Below are positions 15,526 to 31,032 of a DNA stretch of 32,795 nt, piece by piece. The translations under genes were made by a program, and so were the position numbers. Where the stretch lies: assembly GCA_004524435.1 (NCBI GenBank), contig SDNO01000006.1, positions 1 through 32,795 on the forward strand, in the 5' to 3' direction. Position 1 is the stretch's first letter; each line of letters opens with the position of its first letter. The notes under the pieces were generated by a model that was not told where the DNA came from, did not search any database, and saw only the letters and a list, made by a program, of their open reading frames with translations. The DNA comes from Candidatus Thorarchaeota archaeon. GTDB lineage: Archaea > Asgardarchaeota > Thorarchaeia > Thorarchaeales > Thorarchaeaceae.

Positions 15526-17013
15526 TTAGAAGAAAGCCGACAAGAAGTGCATCACTACGTCTGGATAGATGCCAAACAGCAAGGAAACCAATGCAAGAAT
15601 GAAGAGTGGCAGAGTCATGCTCTTTGGTGCTTCCTTCACATCTTCCAGTTCTGATGATAGAGGACCAAAGAATATGCGCTTCACCGGCCAGAAGGTATAG
15701 GCTGCCGTCAGGAACGTTGCGAATATAGCGATGACCGGTATCGCGAATTGTAGAGCCCCTTGGAGTGTTCCGCCCTGAAATATCCCAACAAACATGACCC
15801 ACTCGGCCTGAAGCCCGCTCAGAGGAGGAATGGCAGAGAGAATCATGGAACCAAGGATAGCAAGGGCCGCCGTGAAGGGCATCTTCTTGGCCAGACCGCC
15901 CATCTTGTTCATATCCCTAGATCCGGTCTGCATCATGAGAACGCCTGCTATGCAGAGGAGGATGCTCTTACCCAGGATGTGGCTCACGAAATAGAAGACT
16001 CCCCCTGCAAGCCCCATTGCCGTGAGACTCCCTATGCCCACCAAGGAATAGGCAGTCTGGCTGATTGTGGAACATGCATAGAGGCGCTTGACGTCGTCTT
16101 GGGCCAGTGTGAGAAGGCCACCATAGACCATTGTAATCAGACCAAGAACCATGATCGGTAGTCCGAACACTTGGAAGTCAGCAGCAAGAGGCACTGCGAG
16201 TAGACGAACAATCACATAGCTGCCCAATCCCGCAATGGTTGCAATGATTGCGGCGATGTGTGCAAGGTGCTCACCGTGAGCGTAGGGCAACCATACATGG
16301 AGACCGAATGCTGCCATCTTGATGAGCCATCCGACTAAAATCAACAGGCAGACCCAGAAGGCGATGGGCTGCCCCGAGATTGTCGATAGGGCATTTATGC
16401 TGAACGAGCCACCTGTGGCTGTTGAGGCCAAGATTGCACCTATTAGAAACAGACCAGCTGCAACCTGATTCCAGATGAAGTACATCGTTGCAACTCGATG
16501 CCGCTCTCTGTATCCGAAGAAGTCGAGAAGGAAGTAGGATGGAATCAGTACAAGCTCAATGAACAGGTACATAGCTATTAGGTTCGATGAGAGCGCAACA
16601 CCGACGAGGCCAATGGGGAAGAGCAGGTAGAGTGCATGATAGAGTCCATGCATGGATTTGTTCTCTTCGCCATAGAGCTCGTCTATTCGATGCTTCATAT
16701 AGTGTATAGAATAGATGGAGGCTGCCGTACAGATGAGGTTCATTATTAGTGCGACAGGCAGACTCAGATTATCAGCAATGAATCCGAATTCGAGGGTAAA
16801 ACTGACTGCACTCCATGTGTAAGTTTCACTGATTGGAAGTGCCGTTGTCCAGATAGTTGATCCTGCAATGAGTAGAAGAGATGTCGTGTATATCAGGATG
16901 GCAGAAGCAATCCAACCCACGTATTTTCCAATCCTTTTACCCATTAGAGCGACAAGAGGCGCAGCAACTGCAGGCACAAGAATCGTCTGGAGTAGAACAA
17001 ACGGTATTTCCAT
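15526..17013 (-). CDS. nuoM: Complex-I-like hydrogenase, antiporter subunit M (NuoM/MrpD-type)
   Basis: This 495-residue membrane subunit is one of the three proton- or sodium-pumping antiporter-like modules of the complex, last in the left operon and one base after nuoL. About fourteen hydrophobic segments fit the family. The TM5 glutamate is present (FIELVLIPSY, E153), and so is the TM7 lysine (WLIKMAAFGLHVWLP, K232). The discontinuous helix after it reads HGEHLAHIAAI where most homologues have E-A-P-T/S-P-x-S. The broken-helix prolines are thus missing, and an extra histidine cluster is present instead. The C-terminal channel helix has PPLSGLQAEW with a glutamate in the usual position. Assignment to M rather than N rests on E-L-V-L-I-P, which is typical for M. 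Confidence 0.9.
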   Translation of the reverse strand: MEIPFVLLQTILVPAVAAPLVALMGKRIGKYVGWIASAILIYTTSLLLIAGSTIWTTALPISETYTWSAVSFTLEFGFIADNLSLPVALIMNLICTAASIYSIHYMKHRIDELYGEENKSMHGLYHALYLLFPIGLVGVALSSNLIAMYLFIELVLIPSYFLLDFFGYRERHRVATMYFIWNQVAAGLFLIGAILASTATGGSFSINALSTISGQPIAFWVCLLILVGWLIKMAAFGLHVWLPYAHGEHLAHIAAIIATIAGLGSYVIVRLLAVPLAADFQVFGLPIMVLGLITMVYGGLLTLAQDDVKRLYACSTISQTAYSLVGIGSLTAMGLAGGVFYFVSHILGKSILLCIAGVLMMQTGSRDMNKMGGLAKKMPFTAALAILGSMILSAIPPLSGLQAEWVMFVGIFQGGTLQGALQFAIPVIAIFATFLTAAYTFWPVKRIFFGPLSSELEDVKEAPKSMTLPLFILALVSLLFGIYPDVVMHFLSAFF

Positions 17014-17014
17014 G

Positions 17015-19054
17015 CTACGGCACCACCAGGAATACGATTGAAATTAATGCAAGTAGTATAAACAGCAGTATGTATTGGATATTGATGGACAGAAGACCTG
17101 TCTGAAGCCTCCTGAGCCCCTTGCTCAATCCTGAGAATAACCTGGGAATTCCCTCATTGAACAGACAATCGAGAGGGTCTTCGATATACTTCTGGACCAG
17201 ATGGCGATATCTTATGGTTCCATCAACGAATACCCTGTTTATGGAGGAATTGATGTACCAGCGTTTTCTCAAGAACATCTGGATTCGCTGAAGGATGCCG
17301 CTACCCTCGACCAGAGCCTCTGATGAACTCGCATGACTAACATAGAAGCGATAGGCAGGCAAGGCACCGATGACAATCATAACCAATGAGAGAAGGGGTA
17401 AGAGCAAAGTCAAAGGCACTGTAGACTGAGCTGCTGGCGCGATGCTACCGGCTGTGCCGCTATGTACCTCAAACCCAAGGAAATCGACGAAGTATGCCTC
17501 GAATATGTGCTCAATCTGCTCACCAAACCAAGGCCCAATCGCACCAACTGCCACCGAAAGCACGGCCAGTATTCCGTAGGGAACAAGCATGATGGGACTG
17601 GCCTCCTTGTCCTCTTGATTTTCTTCGTCATTCTTGTGAAAGACCTTCCCCATGAAGCGTACCGAGTAGAATGCCGTGAAGGCAACAGTCACCAGAGCCA
17701 AGGCGAAGAGAATGAATTGGCCGGTCTCAAAGGAGAGACTCAAGATCTCCTCCTTGCTCCAGAATCCTGACAGAGGGGGAATCCCCATGAGGGACATAGT
17801 CGCCACCCACATGAATATCCACGTATAGCGCATGCTGCGTCTTGAGAGGTCCATTTCGGACATGTAGATGGATCCAGTTGTATGAATGATGACCCCCGCG
17901 CACAGGAATAGTGCAGCTTTGAAGATACCGTGACTGATGAGATGGAAGATCCCTGCAGTCAAACCAAGCGTCATGGAATGAGAGGTGAATCCTGCTAGAC
18001 CGAGACCTAGGATCATATAGCCTATCTGACTCATGGTCGAATAGGCGAGGACCTTCTTGAGCTCAACAGCTACCATAGCCTGGGTACCGGTAAGGAACGC
18101 CGTGATGGCTCCAACAGCTGCCGTGACTGCGAAGAAGGTGAATGCCTCCGGATAGTTTGCAATCCAAGTTGCATAGAAGAAGACAGGAATCAGCCGAGCA
18201 ATGAAATAGACACCCGCCTTGACCATTGTGGCCGCATGAATCAGGGCAGAAACCGGCGTTGGACCCGCCATGGCTTCTGGGAGCCACTCGTGTAGCGGAA
18301 ACTGAGCTGACTTTGCGATGGGGCCACCAAGCAAGAGAACAGAGAGCAGGGTGAGAGCACCGGGGTCAGTCGCGAGAGCTGCCAGCCACACATCGGCTGT
18401 CTGATACAGCTCAAGGAAACTCAAAGTCCCAGAGTAGGTATAAAGAAAGACTATACCTCCAAGCAAGGATACATCGCCAAAGGTCGTCACAAGGAGTGCC
18501 TTCAGACCGGCTCGCGATGGGGTCCGGAAAGGGAAGGGGTCGGGTCCGCCCAGCCAGTGTTCCTCCTCGTCAGAATAATAATGCCCAATGAGAGCGTAGC
18601 TACAGATACCGACCATCTTCCATCCGATAAACATGAGGATGAGATTATCGGCAAGAACGAGGAGGAGCATGCTGGTAATGAAAATCGACATGAAGAACCA
18701 GTATCGATCCTGACCCGGCTCATGCTCAACATACTTCACCGAATAGATCATGATGGCTAGGGAGAGGAAGGCAACTATGTTGGCAAGGATGATGCTGAGT
18801 GGGTCAATGAGCATGCCGATACTTATGGAGCCCCCACCGGGTAGAGAGATCCAGAAGGCGGGACTGTTGAATGACTCTGCCCTGACAATCTCAGGCAACA
18901 TCAATAGTGCCATTAGGAAACCGAGGAAGGTGAAGAAGACAACGGCGTAGTCTCGAATCGGCCTCCCGATTCGAATCAAGAGAATCGCCATTGCCGCGCC
19001 CAGCAACGGGAAAATCCAACACAACCAAGCAAGAAGATGGATGTCTATTAGCAT
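17015..19054 (-). CDS. nuoL: Complex-I-like hydrogenase, antiporter subunit L (NuoL)
   Basis: This 679-residue distal antiporter subunit aligns almost without gaps to NuoL through LADNLILMFIGW, AKSAQFPLHEWLPEAMAGPTPVSALIHAATMV, VLAYSTMSQIGYM and PPLSGFWSKEE. A long C-terminal part ends in LRRLQTGLLSINIQYILLF. This is the end of the lateral helix and the last TM found in true NuoL. The TM7 lysine (K248) is present. In TM5 the invariant glutamate of GWEGVG (E144 in E. coli) is replaced by lysine: GWKMVG, K146, AAG codon at 18617-18619 complement. A hydrophilic insert (YSDEEEHWLGGPDPFPF) follows TM5, as in other NuoL proteins. It sits between the N-like and M genes, 13 bases after the former. 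Confidence 0.93.
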   Translation of the reverse strand: MLIDIHLLAWLCWIFPLLGAAMAILLIRIGRPIRDYAVVFFTFLGFLMALLMLPEIVRAESFNSPAFWISLPGGGSISIGMLIDPLSIILANIVAFLSLAIMIYSVKYVEHEPGQDRYWFFMSIFITSMLLLVLADNLILMFIGWKMVGICSYALIGHYYSDEEEHWLGGPDPFPFRTPSRAGLKALLVTTFGDVSLLGGIVFLYTYSGTLSFLELYQTADVWLAALATDPGALTLLSVLLLGGPIAKSAQFPLHEWLPEAMAGPTPVSALIHAATMVKAGVYFIARLIPVFFYATWIANYPEAFTFFAVTAAVGAITAFLTGTQAMVAVELKKVLAYSTMSQIGYMILGLGLAGFTSHSMTLGLTAGIFHLISHGIFKAALFLCAGVIIHTTGSIYMSEMDLSRRSMRYTWIFMWVATMSLMGIPPLSGFWSKEEILSLSFETGQFILFALALVTVAFTAFYSVRFMGKVFHKNDEENQEDKEASPIMLVPYGILAVLSVAVGAIGPWFGEQIEHIFEAYFVDFLGFEVHSGTAGSIAPAAQSTVPLTLLLPLLSLVMIVIGALPAYRFYVSHASSSEALVEGSGILQRIQMFLRKRWYINSSINRVFVDGTIRYRHLVQKYIEDPLDCLFNEGIPRLFSGLSKGLRRLQTGLLSINIQYILLFILLALISIVFLVVP

Positions 19055-19067
19055 TTGTTCTCATTCC

Positions 19068-20522
19068 TCAGGTCATTGATAGAATTGCGAGTGCTGCTCG
19101 TTCTGCGATATTGAAGACCAAGTCGGGCCAGATTCCAAACGTGATAATCAGGATTGCCAGAATCCATATTGGGAACCACATCGAGACAGGTGCCTCCCGT
19201 AAATTCTCGCTGGGTTCAGACTCAGTTTCTATCATCACCCTTACGATACGTAGATAGTAGCCTGCAGAAATTGCACTGTTCAAGATGATTGCAATGCCAA
19301 CCCAGGCCAAGTTGACATCAGCCACAGATACAAAGAGAGTCAGTTTGCTGACAAAGCCGTTCAGGCCCGGCAGTCCAATGAGAGCAAAGATTGCTATGGA
19401 GAAGGCCACAGCGATCTTGGGCATTCTACGAGCAAGACCAGACATATCTGCTAGATTGCGACTCCCCAGTCTGTAGATGATTGCCCCTGCACAGAGAAAA
19501 GCGGTTCCTTTCATCAGTGCATGATTCAAGATATGAAGAATCGTGCCTGTGAGACCAACTACTGTGCCTGCTGCCAATCCAGCGAGCATATAGCCGATGT
19601 GTCCGATGCTTGAGTAGGCAAGCATGCGTTTCAGGTCATCTTGGACAAGTGCAGTCATATTCCCGAGCGTCATGGTGATGACGGCCAAGACAGCAAACAC
19701 CATCGACCAGTAGGTCTGCAGAGAGATGAGGGCAGTAAAGAGAACGCGGACCATTGCAAGGAGTCCGGTTTCAATCACTATGCCTGAAAGCATAGCGGAT
19801 ATGGGAGAAGGCGCAGCCGAGTGTGCATCAGGCAGCCATGTATGTAGGGGTACAATTGCAGCCTTGACTCCAAAGCCTGTGAAGATGAACAAGAGAGCAA
19901 TGTAGAGCCATGGCCCCGGTGTGGCGTGACCAAGAGCTGTAGCAAGCCCGCCAAAATTCAGTGTACCGGTCATCCCATACAAGAGGGATATTCCAAACAA
20001 CAGAGTCGCAGAGCCGGCAGAGCTCATCAGCAGGTACTTTATGCCTGCCTCAACAGGTTCTGGCTCTTCATTTTTGAATGCAACCAGTAGATAGGAGGTT
20101 AGACACATCATCTCCCAAAATACGAAGAGTGTGAAGAGGTCGGCCGCCGTGACAACTCCGACCATCCCGCCAATCATGCCAATGAGAAGTGCGTAGTATA
20201 ATGAACTACCACTCTCACTTCTCATGTATTGTATGGAGAAGATGCTTGCTGCGATTCCCAGGCCGATCTGGATGACCATTGCAAAGGACCCAAAGATGTC
20301 AAGGTCAAAGTAGGCATTGAAGAGACCGCTAGTGGGAGTGGGGGGTACAACTCCGCCCAGAGTCTGAAGTAGCAGCTGGAATGCTGTGAAGGCTGAGAGG
20401 AGAATCCCCAGGGTAGCATAGACGCCAGAAAGGCGCGGTAGGTCTACCTTCTGGGCAAGCCAACCGATTAGTGGTGTTGTAATGGCGAAGAGAAATAGCA
20501 AATCAAGTGGCAAGGTCAACAT
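19068..20522 (-). CDS. nuoN: Complex-I-like hydrogenase, antiporter subunit N (NuoN/MrpD-like)
   Basis: This 484-residue antiporter-like membrane subunit is the third channel of the membrane arm. Key residues are intact: TM5 glutamate in LFVFWEMMCLTSY (E137), TM7 lysine in GFGVKAAIVPLHTWLPDAH (K220), the broken helix SAAPSPISAMLSG, and the TM12 lysine in GLNGFVSKL. In sequence style it is as close to MrpD/MbhH as to NuoN, so the letter N rests mainly on its position after K and the absence of L or M signatures. The ATG start is preceded by TTAGGAGGAG ten bases upstream, one of the strongest ribosome binding sites in the cluster. Confidence 0.88.
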   Translation of the reverse strand: MLTLPLDLLFLFAITTPLIGWLAQKVDLPRLSGVYATLGILLSAFTAFQLLLQTLGGVVPPTPTSGLFNAYFDLDIFGSFAMVIQIGLGIAASIFSIQYMRSESGSSLYYALLIGMIGGMVGVVTAADLFTLFVFWEMMCLTSYLLVAFKNEEPEPVEAGIKYLLMSSAGSATLLFGISLLYGMTGTLNFGGLATALGHATPGPWLYIALLFIFTGFGVKAAIVPLHTWLPDAHSAAPSPISAMLSGIVIETGLLAMVRVLFTALISLQTYWSMVFAVLAVITMTLGNMTALVQDDLKRMLAYSSIGHIGYMLAGLAAGTVVGLTGTILHILNHALMKGTAFLCAGAIIYRLGSRNLADMSGLARRMPKIAVAFSIAIFALIGLPGLNGFVSKLTLFVSVADVNLAWVGIAIILNSAISAGYYLRIVRVMIETESEPSENLREAPVSMWFPIWILAILIITFGIWPDLVFNIAERAALAILSMT

Positions 20523-20537
20523 TATTACTAGCTCCTC

Positions 20538-20852
20538 CTAACCTCTCAGACGACGAAGTTCTCGTATGTCAAGTGTTCCATAGTGCCTGTACACAAAGAT
20601 GATGATAGTAAATGCTGCAGCACTAATACATCCCGCCAATGTGATGGACATCATCACGATTGAATGGGCAAGAGGATCAATGAATCCCTCCGTCCAGTTG
20701 GCCGACAGGACGATGAAATTGAGATTGGCCGCGTTTATCATGATCTCGATTCCAAGAACAAGACGGACCACGTTTCGCTTGGTTGCTAGGCAATACATAC
20801 CGACAATATAGAGCCCCATGGTCAATATCAGATAGTAGGAGAGGGGTATCAT
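20538..20852 (-). CDS. nuoK: Complex-I-like hydrogenase, subunit K (NuoK/MrpC/MbhG-type)
   Basis: This 104-residue subunit has three transmembrane helices and connects the H/J region to the antiporter modules. E36 in LVLGIEIMINAANLNF is the conserved TM2 glutamate of the proton path. The second glutamate of NuoK (E72 in E. coli) is absent: the corresponding helix reads MMSITLAGCISAAAF. Together with the DPLAHSIVMMSIT start of that helix, this looks like MrpC and MbhG rather than NuoK. Its start overlaps the stop of the upstream J2 gene by four bases (ATGA), so the two are translationally coupled. Confidence 0.9.
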   Translation of the reverse strand: MIPLSYYLILTMGLYIVGMYCLATKRNVVRLVLGIEIMINAANLNFIVLSANWTEGFIDPLAHSIVMMSITLAGCISAAAFTIIIFVYRHYGTLDIRELRRLRG

Positions 20853-21136
20853 AGTGTACGTTCATCTCTCTGTGAAGCTATATCCCTGAGCAACGCAAGG
20901 CTTCCAACAGCTGTCAGAAACAGAACAAAGGACTGAGCAAGCAACTCTATGCCTCGATAGTCCCACATGAAAGCACTTGCCTCATCTCCCGTCGATTCGT
21001 CTATCTCAATCAGGTCTTGGTCCGATATCGCAAAGTCAAAGGCAGGAAACGTGTTATTCACAACGAAGACAGAGAATGTGAAGATTGCCAGAATTGAAAA
21101 CACAAGGCCGGTGACCTGTATTGGATCTATGCGCAT
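20849..21136 (-). CDS. Complex-I-like hydrogenase, subunit J2 (MbhE/MrpA-C-terminal-like half of NuoJ)
   Basis: This small membrane protein of about 95 residues has two hydrophobic helices joined by an acidic loop (SDQDLIEIDESTGDE). After the loop, FMWDYRGIELLAQSFVLFLTAVGSLALL matches the MbhE and MrpA C-terminal signature (D-Y/F-R-x-x-D/E-T/L-x-x-E/Q-x-x-V-L-F). This position corresponds to the last two helices of NuoJ. The ATG at 21136 is preferred because GGAG is five bases upstream and the J1 stop ends one base before it; a GTG at 21148 is an alternative. A split J is known from Fpo of methanogens and from Mbh. Confidence 0.82.
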   Translation of the reverse strand: MRIDPIQVTGLVFSILAIFTFSVFVVNNTFPAFDFAISDQDLIEIDESTGDEASAFMWDYRGIELLAQSFVLFLTAVGSLALLRDIASQRDERTL

Positions 21137-21137
21137 A

Positions 21138-21389
21138 TCACTCCACACTTCCGGTCCTGGTTGTCAGTGTAATTGTGGCAATCAGTAGTGCAATAACTGC
21201 CCCTGCGTAGATCAGCAGCTGGAAAATCGCAACGTAGACGGCGCCAGAAAGCCAGAAGACTCCTCCCACGGCTATACACATGCCGCAGAAGGAAAGAATT
21301 GCGTATAGAATGTCTCTGGTTTCAACGGCCATTACCGCAAAGACAAACACTAGCACCATCGATATGAGCTGCATTATCTCAAGAATCAT
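21138..21389 (-). CDS. nuoJ: Complex-I-like hydrogenase, subunit J1 (N-terminal half of NuoJ)
   Basis: This protein of about 83 residues has three transmembrane helices. AVETRDILYAILSF and AIFQLLIYAGAVIALL match the first three helices of NuoJ. The YAGAV motif marks TM3, whose pi-bulge changes drive the coupling cycle in complex I. The protein ends shortly after TM3, and the remaining two helices are supplied by J2. The frame is also open from a TTG at 21416; the ATG at 21389 gives the normal family N-terminus and leaves room for a short leader. It is the first gene of the leftward operon. Confidence 0.85.
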   Translation of the reverse strand: MILEIMQLISMVLVFVFAVMAVETRDILYAILSFCGMCIAVGGVFWLSGAVYVAIFQLLIYAGAVIALLIATITLTTRTGSVE

Positions 21390-21427
21390 GGGAAATTCCA
21401 CAGGGCACTCTGTCAATTCCGCAATAG

Positions 21428-21470: not shown

Positions 21471-21806
21471 ATGTCTCTTGAAGCCTCCTATCTGCTACCT
21501 CTGGCGTTTGGTTTGGCCTTGGGTGTCATACTAGTGATCTATTGGATTGGTGGACGAATCACCTTCAAGGGCGCCGTAGACGAAGAGGAGAGTCACATTC
21601 CATACGCGTGTGGTGAAGAGTTCGCTACTGGTGAAGTGAGAGTTCACTTGGAGAGATTCTTTGTGTTCGCAGTCTATTTACTGATCTTCGATGTCCTGAT
21701 ATTCATACTTGCAACAGCCTTCACGATAACAGGCATACTGCCTGTTCTCTATTCGGTCGTGATCCTGACATCAGCTGTTGTATTCATGATGTTCAAGGGG
21801 GTCTAG
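21471..21806 (+). CDS. nuoA: Complex-I-like hydrogenase, subunit A (NuoA)
   Basis: This 111-residue membrane subunit has three transmembrane helices. The loop after TM1 contains PYACGEE (C47, E49, E50), the conserved cysteine-glutamate loop that in complex I lies over the quinone site and moves during turnover. TM2 has FFVFAVYLLIFDVLIF with the buried aspartate. NuoA is a hallmark of complex I and Fpo and is missing from small Ech-type hydrogenases. Its presence beside a [NiFe] catalytic subunit is therefore notable. It is the first gene of the rightward operon. AAGAAGGT before the ATG could serve as a ribosome binding site. Confidence 0.9.
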   Translation: MSLEASYLLPLAFGLALGVILVIYWIGGRITFKGAVDEEESHIPYACGEEFATGEVRVHLERFFVFAVYLLIFDVLIFILATAFTITGILPVLYSVVILTSAVVFMMFKGV

Positions 21807-21810
21807 TCGC

Positions 21811-22251
21811 ATGGGAATTCTGAAGTGGTCTCGTTCCAAATCCCCCTGGTTGATCCATTTCAACACCGGGGGCTGTAACGGGTGTGATATTGAGCTGCTA
21901 GCTGCACTCACACCGAAGTATGATGTAGAGCGTTTTGGCATAGTCTTGGAAGGAAGTCCCAGACATGCAGACGTCATGGCGGTCACGGGTCCCGTAACCC
22001 GTCAGGTAAGGAAGCGTCTTCGACGGATATATGACCAGATGCCTGAACCCAAGTTCGTGGTAGCTATAGGATCTTGTGCTCTGACAGGCGCGCCTTTCGG
22101 AGACTGCTATAATGTCCTTGGAGGCACAGAGAAGCAGATACCAGTAGACGTCTACGTTCCCGGTTGTCCCCCACGACCTGAGGCAATCATTGATGGAATT
22201 GCCAAGCTCCTTGGCAAGATGGAGAGTAGCGATGATGATGACGGAGAATGA
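21811..22251 (+). CDS. Group 4 [NiFe]-hydrogenase small subunit / NuoB homologue
   Basis: This 146-residue subunit holds the [4Fe-4S] cluster next to the active site. The four ligands are C22 and C25 (TGGCNGCDIELL), C89 (IGSCALTG) and C119 (VPGCPPRPE). In complex I the first pair is an adjacent CC. The C-x-x-C seen here is the form in EchC, MbhJ and HycG, so the protein is a hydrogenase-type small subunit. It is shorter than uptake hydrogenase small subunits, as in group 4. The acidic tail (MESSDDDDGE) is unusual. It begins four bases after nuoA and overlaps the C gene. Confidence 0.92.
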   Translation: MGILKWSRSKSPWLIHFNTGGCNGCDIELLAALTPKYDVERFGIVLEGSPRHADVMAVTGPVTRQVRKRLRRIYDQMPEPKFVVAIGSCALTGAPFGDCYNVLGGTEKQIPVDVYVPGCPPRPEAIIDGIAKLLGKMESSDDDDGE

Positions 22252-22714
22252 GATTGTTGAGTCTCTGAAGGAGTCCTTCGGAGACAAGATTCTGGAGATA
22301 GAATCACCCCGTGAGAGAAGGATTTTCTCGCGCATAAAGCAAGAAGACCTGAAGAAAGTCGTAGCATTCATACGTGACGATCTACAGATTACACACCTTT
22401 CCACGATAACGGCCTCGGACCTCGGTGATGAGATTGAATTGATCTACCACTTTGTGTATGAGGGTGCCATTGTGCTCTCGCTAGTCACCGAAGTTCCAAT
22501 GGATGAGCCTAAGATTCCCACCATCGTTGATATCATCCCTGGTTCACAATTGTACGAGAGAGAAGTATACGAGATGATGGGCGTTGTATTCGAAGGGCAT
22601 CCGAATCTTGAGCCGCTGCTACTGCCAGAGGACTGGCCGAAGGGAGTATACCCGCTAAGAAAGGAGTATGACCTAGAGAAACTGAGGGAGTTGAACAAAG
22701 ATGACACCGCGTAA
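22232..22714 (+). CDS. nuoC: Complex-I-like hydrogenase, subunit C (NuoC/HycE N-domain-like)
   Basis: This peripheral-arm subunit of about 160 residues binds the catalytic subunit from the outside and has no cofactor. The C-terminal half has the 30-kDa subunit signature PGSQLYEREVYEMMGVVFEGHPNLEPLLLPEDWPKGVYPLRKEY. Three consecutive ATG codons (22232, 22235, 22238) could start it; GGAGAG at 22221 fits the first two best. It overlaps the end of the B gene by up to 20 bases and overlaps the D gene by 14, which points to coupled translation. Confidence 0.9.
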   Translation: MMMTENEIVESLKESFGDKILEIESPRERRIFSRIKQEDLKKVVAFIRDDLQITHLSTITASDLGDEIELIYHFVYEGAIVLSLVTEVPMDEPKIPTIVDIIPGSQLYEREVYEMMGVVFEGHPNLEPLLLPEDWPKGVYPLRKEYDLEKLRELNKDDTA

Positions 22715-23888
22715 GGACACAGTAGGAAGAAAGACCACAAGTATCCCTGTGGGCCCACAACACCCTGCGCTGAAAGAGCCTGAGAGTTTCACCTTTGAGA
22801 TTGATGGAGAAACGATTGTTGACGTCATACCGCGACTTGGCTATGTCCACCGAGGAATCGAGAAAGCAATGGAATCAAGGACATATATCCAGAATCTCTA
22901 CCTGGCCGAGAGAATCTGTGGAATATGCTCTCATTCTCACACAACTTGCTATGCCCAAGGTGTCGAGGAGCTCTTAGATGTCAAGATACCAGACAGGGCT
23001 AACTTCATTCGGGTGATAATAGCCGAACTTGAGAGAATCCACAGTCACATGCTATGGTTAGGCGTGGCAGCCCACGAGATTGGATTTGACACCCTGTTCA
23101 TGCATTCTTGGTTAGACAGAGAACTAGTCATGGACCTACTGGAACTCATCTCAGGGAATCGTGTGAACTACGCCATGAACACCATTGGTGGTGTGCGCAG
23201 AAACATTAGCGATGATGGAGGGCAGAAGGTCAAGGACTCCTTGGCTGATGTCGAGGAACGAATGAAGCACTATGTTGAAGTCATAAAGACAGACCAGTCG
23301 ATTCGCCAGAGAACCAAGAACATAGGGCCCTTGAACTGTACACCCGCAGCAGACCTATGCGCTGCTGGACCTACACTCCGTGCCAGCGGCATAGCCCGCG
23401 ATGTGAGAAAGGACGATCCTTACGCAGCCTATGGTGAGATTCCATTCGATGTGATCTCCTACGATGGGTGCGATCTTTTCAGTCGTACTCTGGTCAGATG
23501 TGAGGAAATACTCGAGGCCATCAAGATTACAGACTACGCCATTGACAACCTGCCTGAGGGTGCAATCCGGGTGAGAGCCGCTCGGAAAGTGCCAGAGGGT
23601 CGGGTGGTTTCCCGGCTTGAAGCGCCTCGAGGAGAACTCATCCATTACTGCAAATCGAATGGGACTGACACGCCTGAACGCTACAAGGTCAGGGCTCCAA
23701 CCCTTGCCAATGTTCTAGCACTAGGCAACATGCTTATTGGTGGCAATGTTGCGGACATTCCCATCGTCCTTGCCGGAATTGATCCGTGTTTCTCATGCAT
23801 GGATCGGATGGCATTCGTAGACACCAAGTCCGATAAGAGGTGGACTTGGACACAAGAGGACCTCCAGAGGTACGCACTAAAATGCTAG
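22701..23888 (+). CDS. Group 4 [NiFe]-hydrogenase catalytic large subunit / NuoD homologue
   Basis: This 395-residue catalytic subunit would bind the NiFe(CN)2CO centre. The N-terminal ligand motif is RICGICSHSH (C73, C76, H80), the R-x-C-G-x-C-x-x-x-H form. The C-terminal motif is DPCFSCMDR (C363, C366). Complex I NuoD has lost both cysteine pairs. HRGIEK (E54) near the N-terminus and IGPLNCTPA in the middle are shared with group 4 members. After R369 come 26 residues starting MAFVD and ending RYALKC. This resembles the HycE tail removed after maturation by the HycI protease at the same Arg-Met bond. Expected role: H2 formation with reduced ferredoxin via subunit I, or H2 oxidation. Maturation genes are not in the window. 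Confidence 0.93.
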   Translation: MTPRKDTVGRKTTSIPVGPQHPALKEPESFTFEIDGETIVDVIPRLGYVHRGIEKAMESRTYIQNLYLAERICGICSHSHTTCYAQGVEELLDVKIPDRANFIRVIIAELERIHSHMLWLGVAAHEIGFDTLFMHSWLDRELVMDLLELISGNRVNYAMNTIGGVRRNISDDGGQKVKDSLADVEERMKHYVEVIKTDQSIRQRTKNIGPLNCTPAADLCAAGPTLRASGIARDVRKDDPYAAYGEIPFDVISYDGCDLFSRTLVRCEEILEAIKITDYAIDNLPEGAIRVRAARKVPEGRVVSRLEAPRGELIHYCKSNGTDTPERYKVRAPTLANVLALGNMLIGGNVADIPIVLAGIDPCFSCMDRMAFVDTKSDKRWTWTQEDLQRYALKC

Positions 23889-24847
23889 ACACGGTCGTCA
23901 TTCCACTCGTGATGTTTCTCATATTCCCTGGTGTGGCTTTTCTGCTGGCCATGGCCTTTTTCTTAGAGTGGATAGACAGAAAGACTGTAGCCAGAATCCA
24001 GAGGAGATATGGACCCTTACATACTGGTCCTTCTGGCATTCTTCAGCCCTTTGCAGACTTTTTGAAGTTGCTTCAGAAAGAGGACATCATACCTACGGGG
24101 GTTGACAAGAAAGTGTTCATTTTGGCACCAATCCTCATTTCTGCACTTCCCCTCACTGCCCTGTTCCTTATTCCCTTTGCAGGCCCGAGTGCTCTTGTCT
24201 GGTTTGAGGGGGACCTGTTTCTCATCATGTTTATTTTCACACTGATTGTTCTCGTGGTCTTCCTTGCAGGCTATTGTACGACCTCTCGATTCAGTGTGAT
24301 TGGAAGTTCGCGAGCGGCCCTCCAGATGCTTGGTTATGAAATTCCCATGGGCCTTGCTATGATAGGGCCCGCCCTTCTTGCCGGCAGCCTTTCGATTAGC
24401 GGAATCGGGCAGTGGCAGATGGACAATGGAATCTGGACTGTTCTGCTACAGCCGCTCGGCTTTGCAATACTTGTCACATGCATGCTAGCAGAACTAGAGT
24501 TTGTGCCGTTTGATATTCCGGAAGCCGAGACAGAGATTGTGGGAGGGTGGCGCACAGAATACGGCGGTAGGAAACTCGCTCTACTGAAGCTCGGGCACGA
24601 TTTGGAGCTGGTTCTTGCATCAGCCCTGATCACGGCCCTCTATCTAGGAGGAGCGCAACAGATTTGGATAATCCCTTCAATATTTGTGTTCTTGGCGAAG
24701 ATGCTGCTAGTCACGCTTTTATTCTCCCTCCTAAGAGCAGTGTTCGCACGGATGAGCATTGCACAGATGCTTTCTGGAATGTGGAAGTATATGGTCCCTC
24801 TCGCCATAATTCAGATTCTGCTGATACAACTGGGGATTGGAGGTTGA
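23882..24847 (+). CDS. nuoH: Complex-I-like hydrogenase, subunit H (NuoH/EchB/MbhM)
   Basis: This subunit of about 321 residues has eight or nine transmembrane helices and anchors the catalytic arm to the membrane, where it forms the first proton path. Signatures are FLEWIDRKTVARIQRRYGP, GILQPFADFLKLLQKED, LGYEIPMGLAMIGP and the strongly conserved AELEFVPFDIPEAETEIVGGW loop, rich in acidic residues. The ATG at 23882 starts inside the D gene (ATGCTAG overlap); the longer open frame from 23840 would only extend into it. The order D-H-I is the standard one. Confidence 0.93.
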   Translation: MLDTVVIPLVMFLIFPGVAFLLAMAFFLEWIDRKTVARIQRRYGPLHTGPSGILQPFADFLKLLQKEDIIPTGVDKKVFILAPILISALPLTALFLIPFAGPSALVWFEGDLFLIMFIFTLIVLVVFLAGYCTTSRFSVIGSSRAALQMLGYEIPMGLAMIGPALLAGSLSISGIGQWQMDNGIWTVLLQPLGFAILVTCMLAELEFVPFDIPEAETEIVGGWRTEYGGRKLALLKLGHDLELVLASALITALYLGGAQQIWIIPSIFVFLAKMLLVTLLFSLLRAVFARMSIAQMLSGMWKYMVPLAIIQILLIQLGIGG

Positions 24848-24848
24848 G

Positions 24849-25202
24849 ATGGTGAAGATGATTCGAAACGCAATTAGCTTCCTATTTCAAGGACCAGCAA
24901 CCAGAAAGTACCCCTACGAGAAATCAGAGGTCCCAGAAGGATTCAGGGGACCACCAACTTGGGACATAGAAAGGTGTACGGGATGTGGGATCTGTGCTCG
25001 TGTCTGCCCAGTTGATGCAATAGAAGTCGAGAGAACCGATGAGAAGATAGTTGTCACATATCACCTAGATCGTTGTACATTCTGCTCACAATGTGAGGAG
25101 AGCTGTCCCCGAGATGTCATCAGAATGTCCAAGGAATTCGAACTGGCAGACTTTGACAGAGAGAAGATGACCACAGAATATGTGCAGGACCGAACTGACT
25201 AG
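24849..25202 (+). CDS. nuoI: Complex-I-like hydrogenase, ferredoxin-type subunit I (NuoI/EchF/MbhN)
   Basis: This 117-residue electron-transfer subunit has two [4Fe-4S] clusters: CTGCGICARVCP (C43, C46, C49, C53) and CTFCSQCEESCP (C76, C79, C82, C86). The amphipathic N-terminus (MVKMIRNAISFLFQGP) lies on the membrane in relatives. Electrons probably enter from soluble ferredoxin, because no NuoE, F or G or FpoF homologue is encoded beside it. The ATG at 24849 is chosen because GGAGGT is five bases upstream, and the H stop ends one base before it. It is the last gene of the rightward operon. Confidence 0.93.
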   Translation: MVKMIRNAISFLFQGPATRKYPYEKSEVPEGFRGPPTWDIERCTGCGICARVCPVDAIEVERTDEKIVVTYHLDRCTFCSQCEESCPRDVIRMSKEFELADFDREKMTTEYVQDRTD

Positions 25203-30027: not shown

Positions 30028-31032
30028 CTACCGTGACTCAGTAGCTCCCAGCTCGTTCATGTTTCCGACTACTTCAAGCCCAGCATTCGTTCCGGTTCCT
30101 TCGAACAAGAGGCGAGGCGAGCCGGTCGTAGTGTCATAGAAGCTAACATGAATCCTAGCCGTCAGGCTCTCGACAATACGACCATCCATCAGGCCGCTCT
30201 CGGGCGAGCGTAGTGTTGCCCCTCCGGAGCGATATGCCTTCACGAGAAGCATGTTGTCCCCGTTAGAAACCTTGAACTGCACTTCAGTGGGTGAAACTTG
30301 AATGCTAGAAACCTTGGCTCTCGTGTACGTAGTGAAGCGGTAGATATGGCCTTCAAATAGGAACCCGATGATGAAGCCAGCAAAGGACCGCCCGAACCAT
30401 GGGATTGTAGCAATAGAAGAAGTGAAGGAAACACCGGACTCCTGAAAATGGTTTGATTGCATCCATATCCAGGCGCTGGGGAATCCTGCTCCCCAATCCT
30501 TCTCGATGTAACCACGTCCATCTCTGAAATCAATGGTCTGACCATCAACCTCAACGGAGCCCTCCAGTGCATGATCAAAACTCAGAATACCATGAAGACA
30601 CTCCATACTTGGAAGGAATCTGAAAGGGCCCATGGCCCCGGGACTAAGTTTCGCTACAGGCCAAGGAATGGACTCTCCAAATTGCACATCTCCTTTGACT
30701 ATGCCTGCCTCATCGGCGATATCGAGAGTGATACCTTGGAGGCTGAAAGCATTGCTGTCAATCGAGATGTCGAAATGATCATCAGAACTCTGGAAGCTGG
30801 TGATTGGGAAATCATGATACTTGGAACGAGCAGTGGGGCCCCTCATGACTTGGATGAAGGAATGAGAGTCTTCGGTGTCATCGCCATAGGAAACGCCCGG
30901 AATTATGGCAAGAGAATCATCTCGTGTTGCTGTGACCATTTTGAAGTACCAGCCTTCGAAGTAATTTCTCATCTTCTCCCGTCCCTGATACATCGCAGGG
31001 TTCCAGATTACTCGTAGCCGCCTTGGAATCAT
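30028..31032 (-). CDS. Tocopherol-cyclase-like protein
   Basis: This 334-residue soluble protein has the signatures of the tocopherol cyclase family (PF14249): WNPAMYQG, YFEGWYFKMV, AIIPGVSYG and SFIQVM in the first beta barrel, then GYIEKDWGAGFPSAWIWMQSNHF and IPWFGRSFAGFIIGF in the second. In plants and cyanobacteria the family closes the chromanol ring of vitamin E. In other prokaryotes members of this family lack the rest of that pathway and their role is unknown, which is probably the case here. The gene converges on the LRR gene with only nine bases between them. Confidence 0.8.
   Translation of the reverse strand: MIPRRLRVIWNPAMYQGREKMRNYFEGWYFKMVTATRDDSLAIIPGVSYGDDTEDSHSFIQVMRGPTARSKYHDFPITSFQSSDDHFDISIDSNAFSLQGITLDIADEAGIVKGDVQFGESIPWPVAKLSPGAMGPFRFLPSMECLHGILSFDHALEGSVEVDGQTIDFRDGRGYIEKDWGAGFPSAWIWMQSNHFQESGVSFTSSIATIPWFGRSFAGFIIGFLFEGHIYRFTTYTRAKVSSIQVSPTEVQFKVSNGDNMLLVKAYRSGGATLRSPESGLMDGRIVESLTARIHVSFYDTTTGSPRLLFEGTGTNAGLEVVGNMNELGATESR

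Follow-up and report, generated by a model that had tools for sequence, protein, structure and literature searches.

Gene content of the locus

The window (the whole 32,795-nt stretch of DNA analysed here) contains an operon for an Fpo-like complex that is split on divergent strands, with genes for A, B, C, D, H, and I on one strand and J (in two frames), K, N, L, and M on the other (Table 1). All eleven Fpo-like subunits (A, B, C, D, H, I, J, K, L, M, and N) are present, with the proviso that J is in two frames and A is identified by position and sequence.

Table 1. Predicted genes, motifs, and individual codons of the window operon.
Feature	Position (nt)	Strand	Remarks
NuoM-type subunit	15526..17013	-	495 aa; TM5 Glu153 kept; TIGR01972 231 bits, just below cut-off
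NuoM Glu404 codon (GAG)	15802..15804	-	TM12; column of E. coli NuoM E407; predicted to lie opposite NuoL TM5
NuoL/ND5-type antiporter-like subunit	17015..19054	-	679 aa; TM5 Lys; TIGR01974 and Foldseek
Lys248 codon (AAG)	18311..18313	-	TM7 lysine; E. coli K229; retained
Asp194 codon (GAT)	18473..18475	-	Column of E. coli NuoL Asp178 (TM6); invariant; putative Lys146 partner
Thr191 codon (ACC)	18482..18484	-	Column of E. coli NuoL Arg175 (TM6); neutral in every Lys-type protein
Lys146 codon (AAG)	18617..18619	-	Column of E. coli NuoL Glu144 (TM5); codon read and alignment
NuoN/MrpD-type subunit	19068..20522	-	484 aa; TM5 Glu137 and TM7 Lys220 retained; Glu251 in place of the TM8 Lys
NuoK	20538..20852	-	
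NuoJ, two overlapping frames	20849..21416	-	20849-21148 (by position) and 21138-21416 (NuoJ match)
NuoA-like subunit	21471..21806	+	Position and sequence features; no NCBIfam match
NuoB and NuoC	21811..22714	+	NuoB 21811-22251; NuoC from ATG at 22238 to 22714
NuoD-type catalytic subunit	22701..23888	+	Both [NiFe] motifs; Complex1_49kDa and NiFeSe_Hases both match
L1 motif of NuoD-type subunit (RICGICSHSH)	22911-22940	+	[NiFe] motif
L2 motif of NuoD-type subunit (DPCFSCMDR)	23781-23807	+	[NiFe] motif
NuoH and NuoI	23840..25202	+	NuoH to 24847; NuoI 24837-25202

The D subunit fits both the L1 motif C[GS][ILV]C[AGNS]xxH (as CGICSHSH) and the L2 motif [DE][PL]Cx[AGST]Cx[DE][RL] (as DPCFSCMDR), as these are defined in PMC7886697. 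Since it keeps all four [NiFe] cysteines, the complex is, as judged by these motifs, an Hfo-type Fpo-like [NiFe] hydrogenase and not a quinone-reducing complex I, a point on which the result differs from an initial sequence-only reading that described the L gene as a NuoL. No NuoEFG or FpoFO input module could be identified in a scan of the larger window genes, nor were MrpB, C, E, F, or G recognised beside the operon. The source genome (G000, 87% complete) yielded no other NuoL-like protein: just three antiporter-like matches were found in it, all from the window operon, and there are likewise three in the relatives G010 (99% complete) and G021 (96% complete).

The TM8 residue of the NuoN-type subunit is Glu251 (codon 19770-19772, minus strand). 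A Glu occupies this position in most archaeal relatives (ANME-1, Methanomethylicota, Bathyarchaeota), and a Lys in sulfate reducers. In the NuoM-type subunit the TM8 lysine (E. coli K265) is missing; relatives mostly have Gly or Asn. Also encoded in the window is a tocopherol-cyclase-like protein (30028-31032, minus strand; PF14249, 81 bits), here in an archaeal genome, and the same genome encodes a eukaryote-like actin (G000:C196:2933-4036, L256; PF00022, 439 bits), which we read as a mark of an Asgard archaeon.

A lysine at the TM5 glutamate position of NuoL

In a profile search the putative NuoL matches TIGR01974 over its full length (450.7 bits, against a cut-off of 407.5), and the top Foldseek matches to its structural model are NuoL, ND5, and NdhF chains, with a TMq of about 0.75 to NuoL/ND5 structures. 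In reviews and mutant studies, the TM5 glutamate of NuoL is regarded as essential and as conserved throughout (PMC4938563, PMC10212512). At this point the window protein reads LADNLILMFIG-WKMVG-ICSYALIG, and its alignment to E. coli NuoL is free of gaps on both flanks, placing Lys146 in the E144 column; in the AlphaFold model K146 lies within helix 138-157 (pLDDT about 86). The Glu-to-Lys replacement proposed from the sequence alone is borne out by translation and alignment, and Lys146 is genuine. The TM5 Glu/TM7 Lys ion pair that is a hallmark of NuoL/ND5 is absent from this protein, which does keep its TM7 lysine, as had also been noted (248 being the window protein's own number, and K229 the E. 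coli equivalent). Equally correct was the observation that the N (E137) and M (E153) subunits retain their TM5 Glu; the TM7 Lys is kept in N, L, and M. By column comparison, the NuoL axis residues D178, K229, H254, K305, H334, H338, K342, and K399 (E. coli numbering) are all retained.

Distribution of the TM5 lysine

Among 184 distinct NuoL-type homologues, the TM5 column contains Lys in 64, Glu in 120, and nothing else, and the occurrence of Lys goes far past what chance would give. The premise that every NuoL has a Glu at TM5 does not hold in archaea and anaerobic bacteria. The two nearest relatives of the window protein (G010 and G021, 64% identity), in which a Glu would by the sequence-only reading have pointed to a sequencing error, both have Lys. 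G000 is a fragmented assembly, but with the same residue in these two and about 60 further sequences, and with gap-free flanks, an error of sequencing, assembly, or alignment is refuted by the homologues and need hardly be considered.

In a tree of 74 NuoL proteins, calculated with both test columns masked, the main Lys clade (SH-aLRT 100), to which the window protein belongs, comprises NuoL-like proteins of Methanomethylicota, ANME-1, sulfate reducers, SAR324, Acidobacteria, and Spirochaetes, while a second (also SH-aLRT 100) comes from other Asgard genomes; the TM5 Lys of this second clade is, as placed by the tree, a separate gain. Within the main clade the Lys is invariant except in one protein, L040, a Glu-type sequence nested inside it with a support of 97. 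Altogether the tree has three Lys/Glu changes, and five changes of the Arg at site 175 (see below).

Genome pattern scans gave a broader, if coarser, picture: they asked for Lys or Glu only, and other residues would escape them. Lys was found in 7 of 70 genomes with a pattern match in the window's own phylum; in 10 of 114 in the phylum of G237 (labelled Deltaproteobacteria), after removal of two false matches, with 7 of these 10 also having a Glu-type copy; and in 7 of 44 in the phylum of the GoM-Arc1 genome, where most matches are GWELVG-like (Glu). In this last phylum Lys is limited to ANME-1-like and GoM-Arc1 genomes, which rules out the idea that Fpo/Fqo complexes are generally Lys-type. 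Two Lys-like pattern matches (G328:C603 and G258:C1:6871) fell outside NuoL genes identified by homology, and were dropped. No earlier description of a TM5-Lys NuoL was found in the open-licence full-text literature searched.

Coupled changes in TM6 and in NuoM TM12

The sequence-only reading had suggested that the lysine might be compensated by acidic residues nearby. Some compensation was found, but of another kind: in the columns compared, the acidic residues gained by the Lys clade map to the C-terminal region and to the loop between TM5 and TM6, so that a new carboxylate near TM5 was rejected as a candidate, and what changes instead is the TM6 arginine (E. coli Arg175). None of the 64 Lys-type proteins has Arg or Lys at site 175 (Ser in 27, Gly in 22, Thr in 11, Leu in 3, and Phe in 1), while 101 of the 120 Glu-type proteins do; Gly is found in 18 Bathyarchaeal proteins and Ser in one Asgard protein. 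L040, inside the Lys clade, combines a TM5 Glu with an Arg at 175. It was considered as a possible chimera, but this was rejected because its TM5-TM6 segment is still most like those of Lys-type proteins. The 18 Bathyarchaeal Glu-type proteins show that loss of the Arg does not by itself require a TM5 Lys. Lys146 is probably compensated, as far as these columns indicate, by the disappearance of the TM6 Arg, and both TM6 Asp194 and NuoM TM12 Glu404 are retained; the TM6 Asp is invariant, and the TM12 Glu is present in almost every complex with a Lys-type L.

NuoM TM12 comes into consideration through mouse complex I, in which ND5 D179 is hydrogen-bonded to E145, and ND5 E145 connects to ND4 TM12 E378 (PMC10396290). 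The three sites (NuoL TM5, NuoL 175, NuoM TM12) were counted as a triad in complexes where both L and the next downstream gene are present. The canonical triad is (Glu, Arg/Lys, Glu); the window and Methanomethylicota have (Lys, neutral, Glu), and a mirror arrangement, (Glu, neutral, Lys), is found in Bathyarchaeota. With 0 for neutral and + for Arg or Lys, the counts are 48 for (K,0,E), 48 for (E,+,E), 16 for (E,0,K), 7 for (K,0,K), and 2 for (E,+,K); among these same complexes neither (E,0,E) nor (K,+,any) occurs at all. Of the seven (K,0,K) cases, four come from Desulfonatronospira-type loci; L045, L080, and L081 have a Glu-type NuoM upstream, and L044 is truncated at that point. This leaves L042, L053, and L068 as true exceptions, with a NuoM TM12 Lys alongside a Lys-type L. 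In the two (E,+,K) cases (L012 and L183), the downstream gene is of N type and not of M type, or a distant homologue is involved. Once the rule had been formulated, twenty Glu-type loci were retrieved, and each one in which NuoL 175 and NuoM TM12 could be read was (E,R,E). In the second Asgard Lys clade, the TM12 residue of the partner subunit is Lys or Glu, and the TM7 Lys of this partner is lost.

These counts are not independent, because the sequences are related, and a sign test on three independent pairs gives p = 0.25. The pattern might then reflect a few old lineage splits, without any physical compensation: the tree has just the three Lys/Glu and five Arg changes, and numerous other columns likewise separate the clades. 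This seems unlikely, however, as the sites move together where they do change. TM5 and 175 shift jointly in the main clade, in the L040 reversal, and in the second Asgard clade; 175 and NuoM TM12 do so in Bathyarchaeota, where L071 keeps (E,R,E); and a solved structure shows a link between the corresponding residues (PMC10396290). We consider it somewhat better than an even bet that the NuoL/NuoM contact in pumps of the complex I family comes in three interchangeable electrostatic forms, in which the TM5 Glu would be replaceable by Lys as long as one positive charge stays; mechanisms built on a TM5 carboxylate would then be too narrow.

Genomic contexts of Lys-type L genes

Archaeal Lys-type L genes (Methanomethylicota and the window family) accompany NuoB, D, and H. 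Those of bacteria and ANME-1 are found, at most loci, with homologues of MrpE, F, G, B/MbhE, and C together with N, L, and M, and with no recognised redox module; the bacterial Mrp-like operons look, from their gene content, like stand-alone antiporters that have one additional subunit. The only three antiporter-like matches in the closed genome G237 are those of its Lys-type operon. In the ANME-1 locus L047, the Lys-type L follows FrhB- and HdrA-like genes.

Examples of the Mrp-like operons (MrpE, F, G, B/MbhE, C), each with the three subunits N, L, and M, are L058 (3164-11547) and the similar L055, L066, L074, L087, and L111. At L150-L153 (Asgard genomes G095, G096, G097, and G057), the second kind of Lys-type L lies beside an N-type subunit in which the TM7 lysine is Thr, and adjoins a D subunit with the [NiFe] cysteines.

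Possible roles of the TM5 lysine

The reading we prefer, with a probability of roughly 0.7, is that the window NuoL is the distal antiporter-like subunit of an eleven-subunit Fpo/Nuo-like membrane [NiFe] hydrogenase (Hfo type) of an Asgard archaeon, that its positive charge has been relocated, and that it probably still moves ions. One positive charge would be needed among the carboxylates at the NuoL/NuoM contact. In the canonical enzyme, the TM6 Arg would supply it among NuoL TM5 Glu, TM6 Asp, and NuoM TM12 Glu; in the Lys type, Lys146 would do so, paired with Asp194 and NuoM Glu404; and in the Bathyarchaeal type it would be shifted to NuoM TM12. Asp194-Lys248 (TM6-TM7) might take over as the switchable ion pair, and in all three forms the TM7 Lys would retain the acidic TM6 Asp; the corresponding K229/D178 pair in E. 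coli NuoL has already been discussed (PMC9271201). Because a TM5 lysine can accept and release a proton, Lys146 could still relay between NuoM TM12 and NuoL TM7. In E. coli, changing NuoL E144 to Ala or Gln abolishes activity (PMC3046159), and therefore uncompensated changes are harmful.

As a second possibility, the lysine might alter the choice of ion, giving the Lys-type subunit, for example, a Na+/H+ antiport role. The Mrp homologues adjoining bacterial and ANME-1 Lys-type L genes, without a redox module, are consistent with this, and a role for Na+ has been suggested for Asgard group 4 complexes (PMC11291895). Archaeal Lys-type complexes, the window's included, have no adjacent Mrp subunits, however, so that the same Lys is used in both settings; adding another positively charged side chain makes no obvious Na+ site; and the Na+ paths proposed for Mrp lie where MrpA, MrpB, MrpC, and MrpD meet rather than at MrpA TM5 (PMC9568556). 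We regard a change of ion as unlikely, to about the same degree as the lineage explanation considered above.

A third possibility, extending the inactive distal pump suggested in the sequence-only reading, is that the lysine breaks this pump, leaving L as a structural spacer in a complex that moves fewer ions, through N and M only. This could suit a reaction of low energy yield such as ferredoxin-driven H2 evolution; less energy is gained from reactions of hydrogen than from the reduction of quinone. The loss of activity in E. coli E144A and E144Q (PMC3046159) could be read in this way, as could the replacement of TM8 Lys by Glu in the window N and the lack of a TM8 Lys in M, by which the whole axis is altered. 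Against it, the Lys is fixed in a large family, and in the 184-protein set is never swapped for Gln, Arg, or a neutral residue; within the Lys clade the remaining NuoL proton-path residues vary little or not at all, among them the TM7, TM8, and TM10-TM12 lysines and histidines; the loss of the Arg is coordinated with it; this is the sole NuoL-like protein found in the lineage; and Lys-type L proteins also occur in what appear to be stand-alone antiporter operons, where ion movement would be the only plausible job. A dead distal pump is unlikely on this evidence, about as much so as the other two alternatives to a relocated charge.

The TM5 Glu serves as a proton site in current models, among them the "domino" scheme, where all protons exit via NuoL. 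A widespread natural variant with Lys, coupled to a change in the neighbouring helix, offers a ready-made test of what that site requires.

Comparison with known systems

The window NuoL resembles E. coli NuoL and mitochondrial ND5 in fold, length, the long C-terminal helix, the axis residues of TM7 and TM10-TM12, and the TM6 Asp. It differs from them in its TM5 Lys, the absence of a TM6 Arg, and a longer TM5-TM6 loop, and has a TM8 Lys where E. coli NuoL has Thr260.

Hfo is an Fpo-like, eleven-subunit [NiFe] hydrogenase of Bathyarchaeia and Methanomethylicus, in subgroup 4g (PMC7886697). The window complex shares its Fpo-like gene set without NuoEFG or FpoFO and the L1 and L2 [NiFe] motifs in D, the likeness to this subgroup being one of motifs and gene set. 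Unlike it, the window has its genes on two divergent strands and NuoJ in two frames, and while the L proteins at most Bathyarchaeal loci here belong to the (Glu, neutral, NuoM Lys) form, the (Lys, neutral, NuoM Glu) form is that of the window and of Methanomethylicota.

From other Asgard archaea, a complex I-like group 4 [NiFe] hydrogenase has been described (PMC11291895), which similarly joins a hydrogenase to NuoL-like subunits, including an L with a long helix; it has two antiporter-like subunits, however, where the window has three. By gene content, the second Lys-type clade (L150-L153) resembles this kind.

The Mrp antiporters (MrpA Glu140/Lys223; MrpD TM12 Lys392; PMC9568556) have homologous subunits, and bacterial Lys-type L genes lie among MrpE/F/G/B/C genes, but MrpA has a TM5 Glu, and Mrp has two such subunits against three (N, L, and M) in Lys-type operons.

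The closest engineered counterpart is E. coli NuoM E407K, a Glu-to-Lys change at the same NuoM/NuoL contact, which assembles and has 80% of the electron transfer left, with weaker pumping at about 1.5 H+/e- (PMC9271201). It still has Arg175, while natural Lys-type and Bathyarchaeal complexes are without the Arg; this residue, left behind, is a candidate reason for its pumping at only about 75%. The pattern described here predicts that removal of Arg175 would help E407K, and so a specific two-residue rescue in E. coli.
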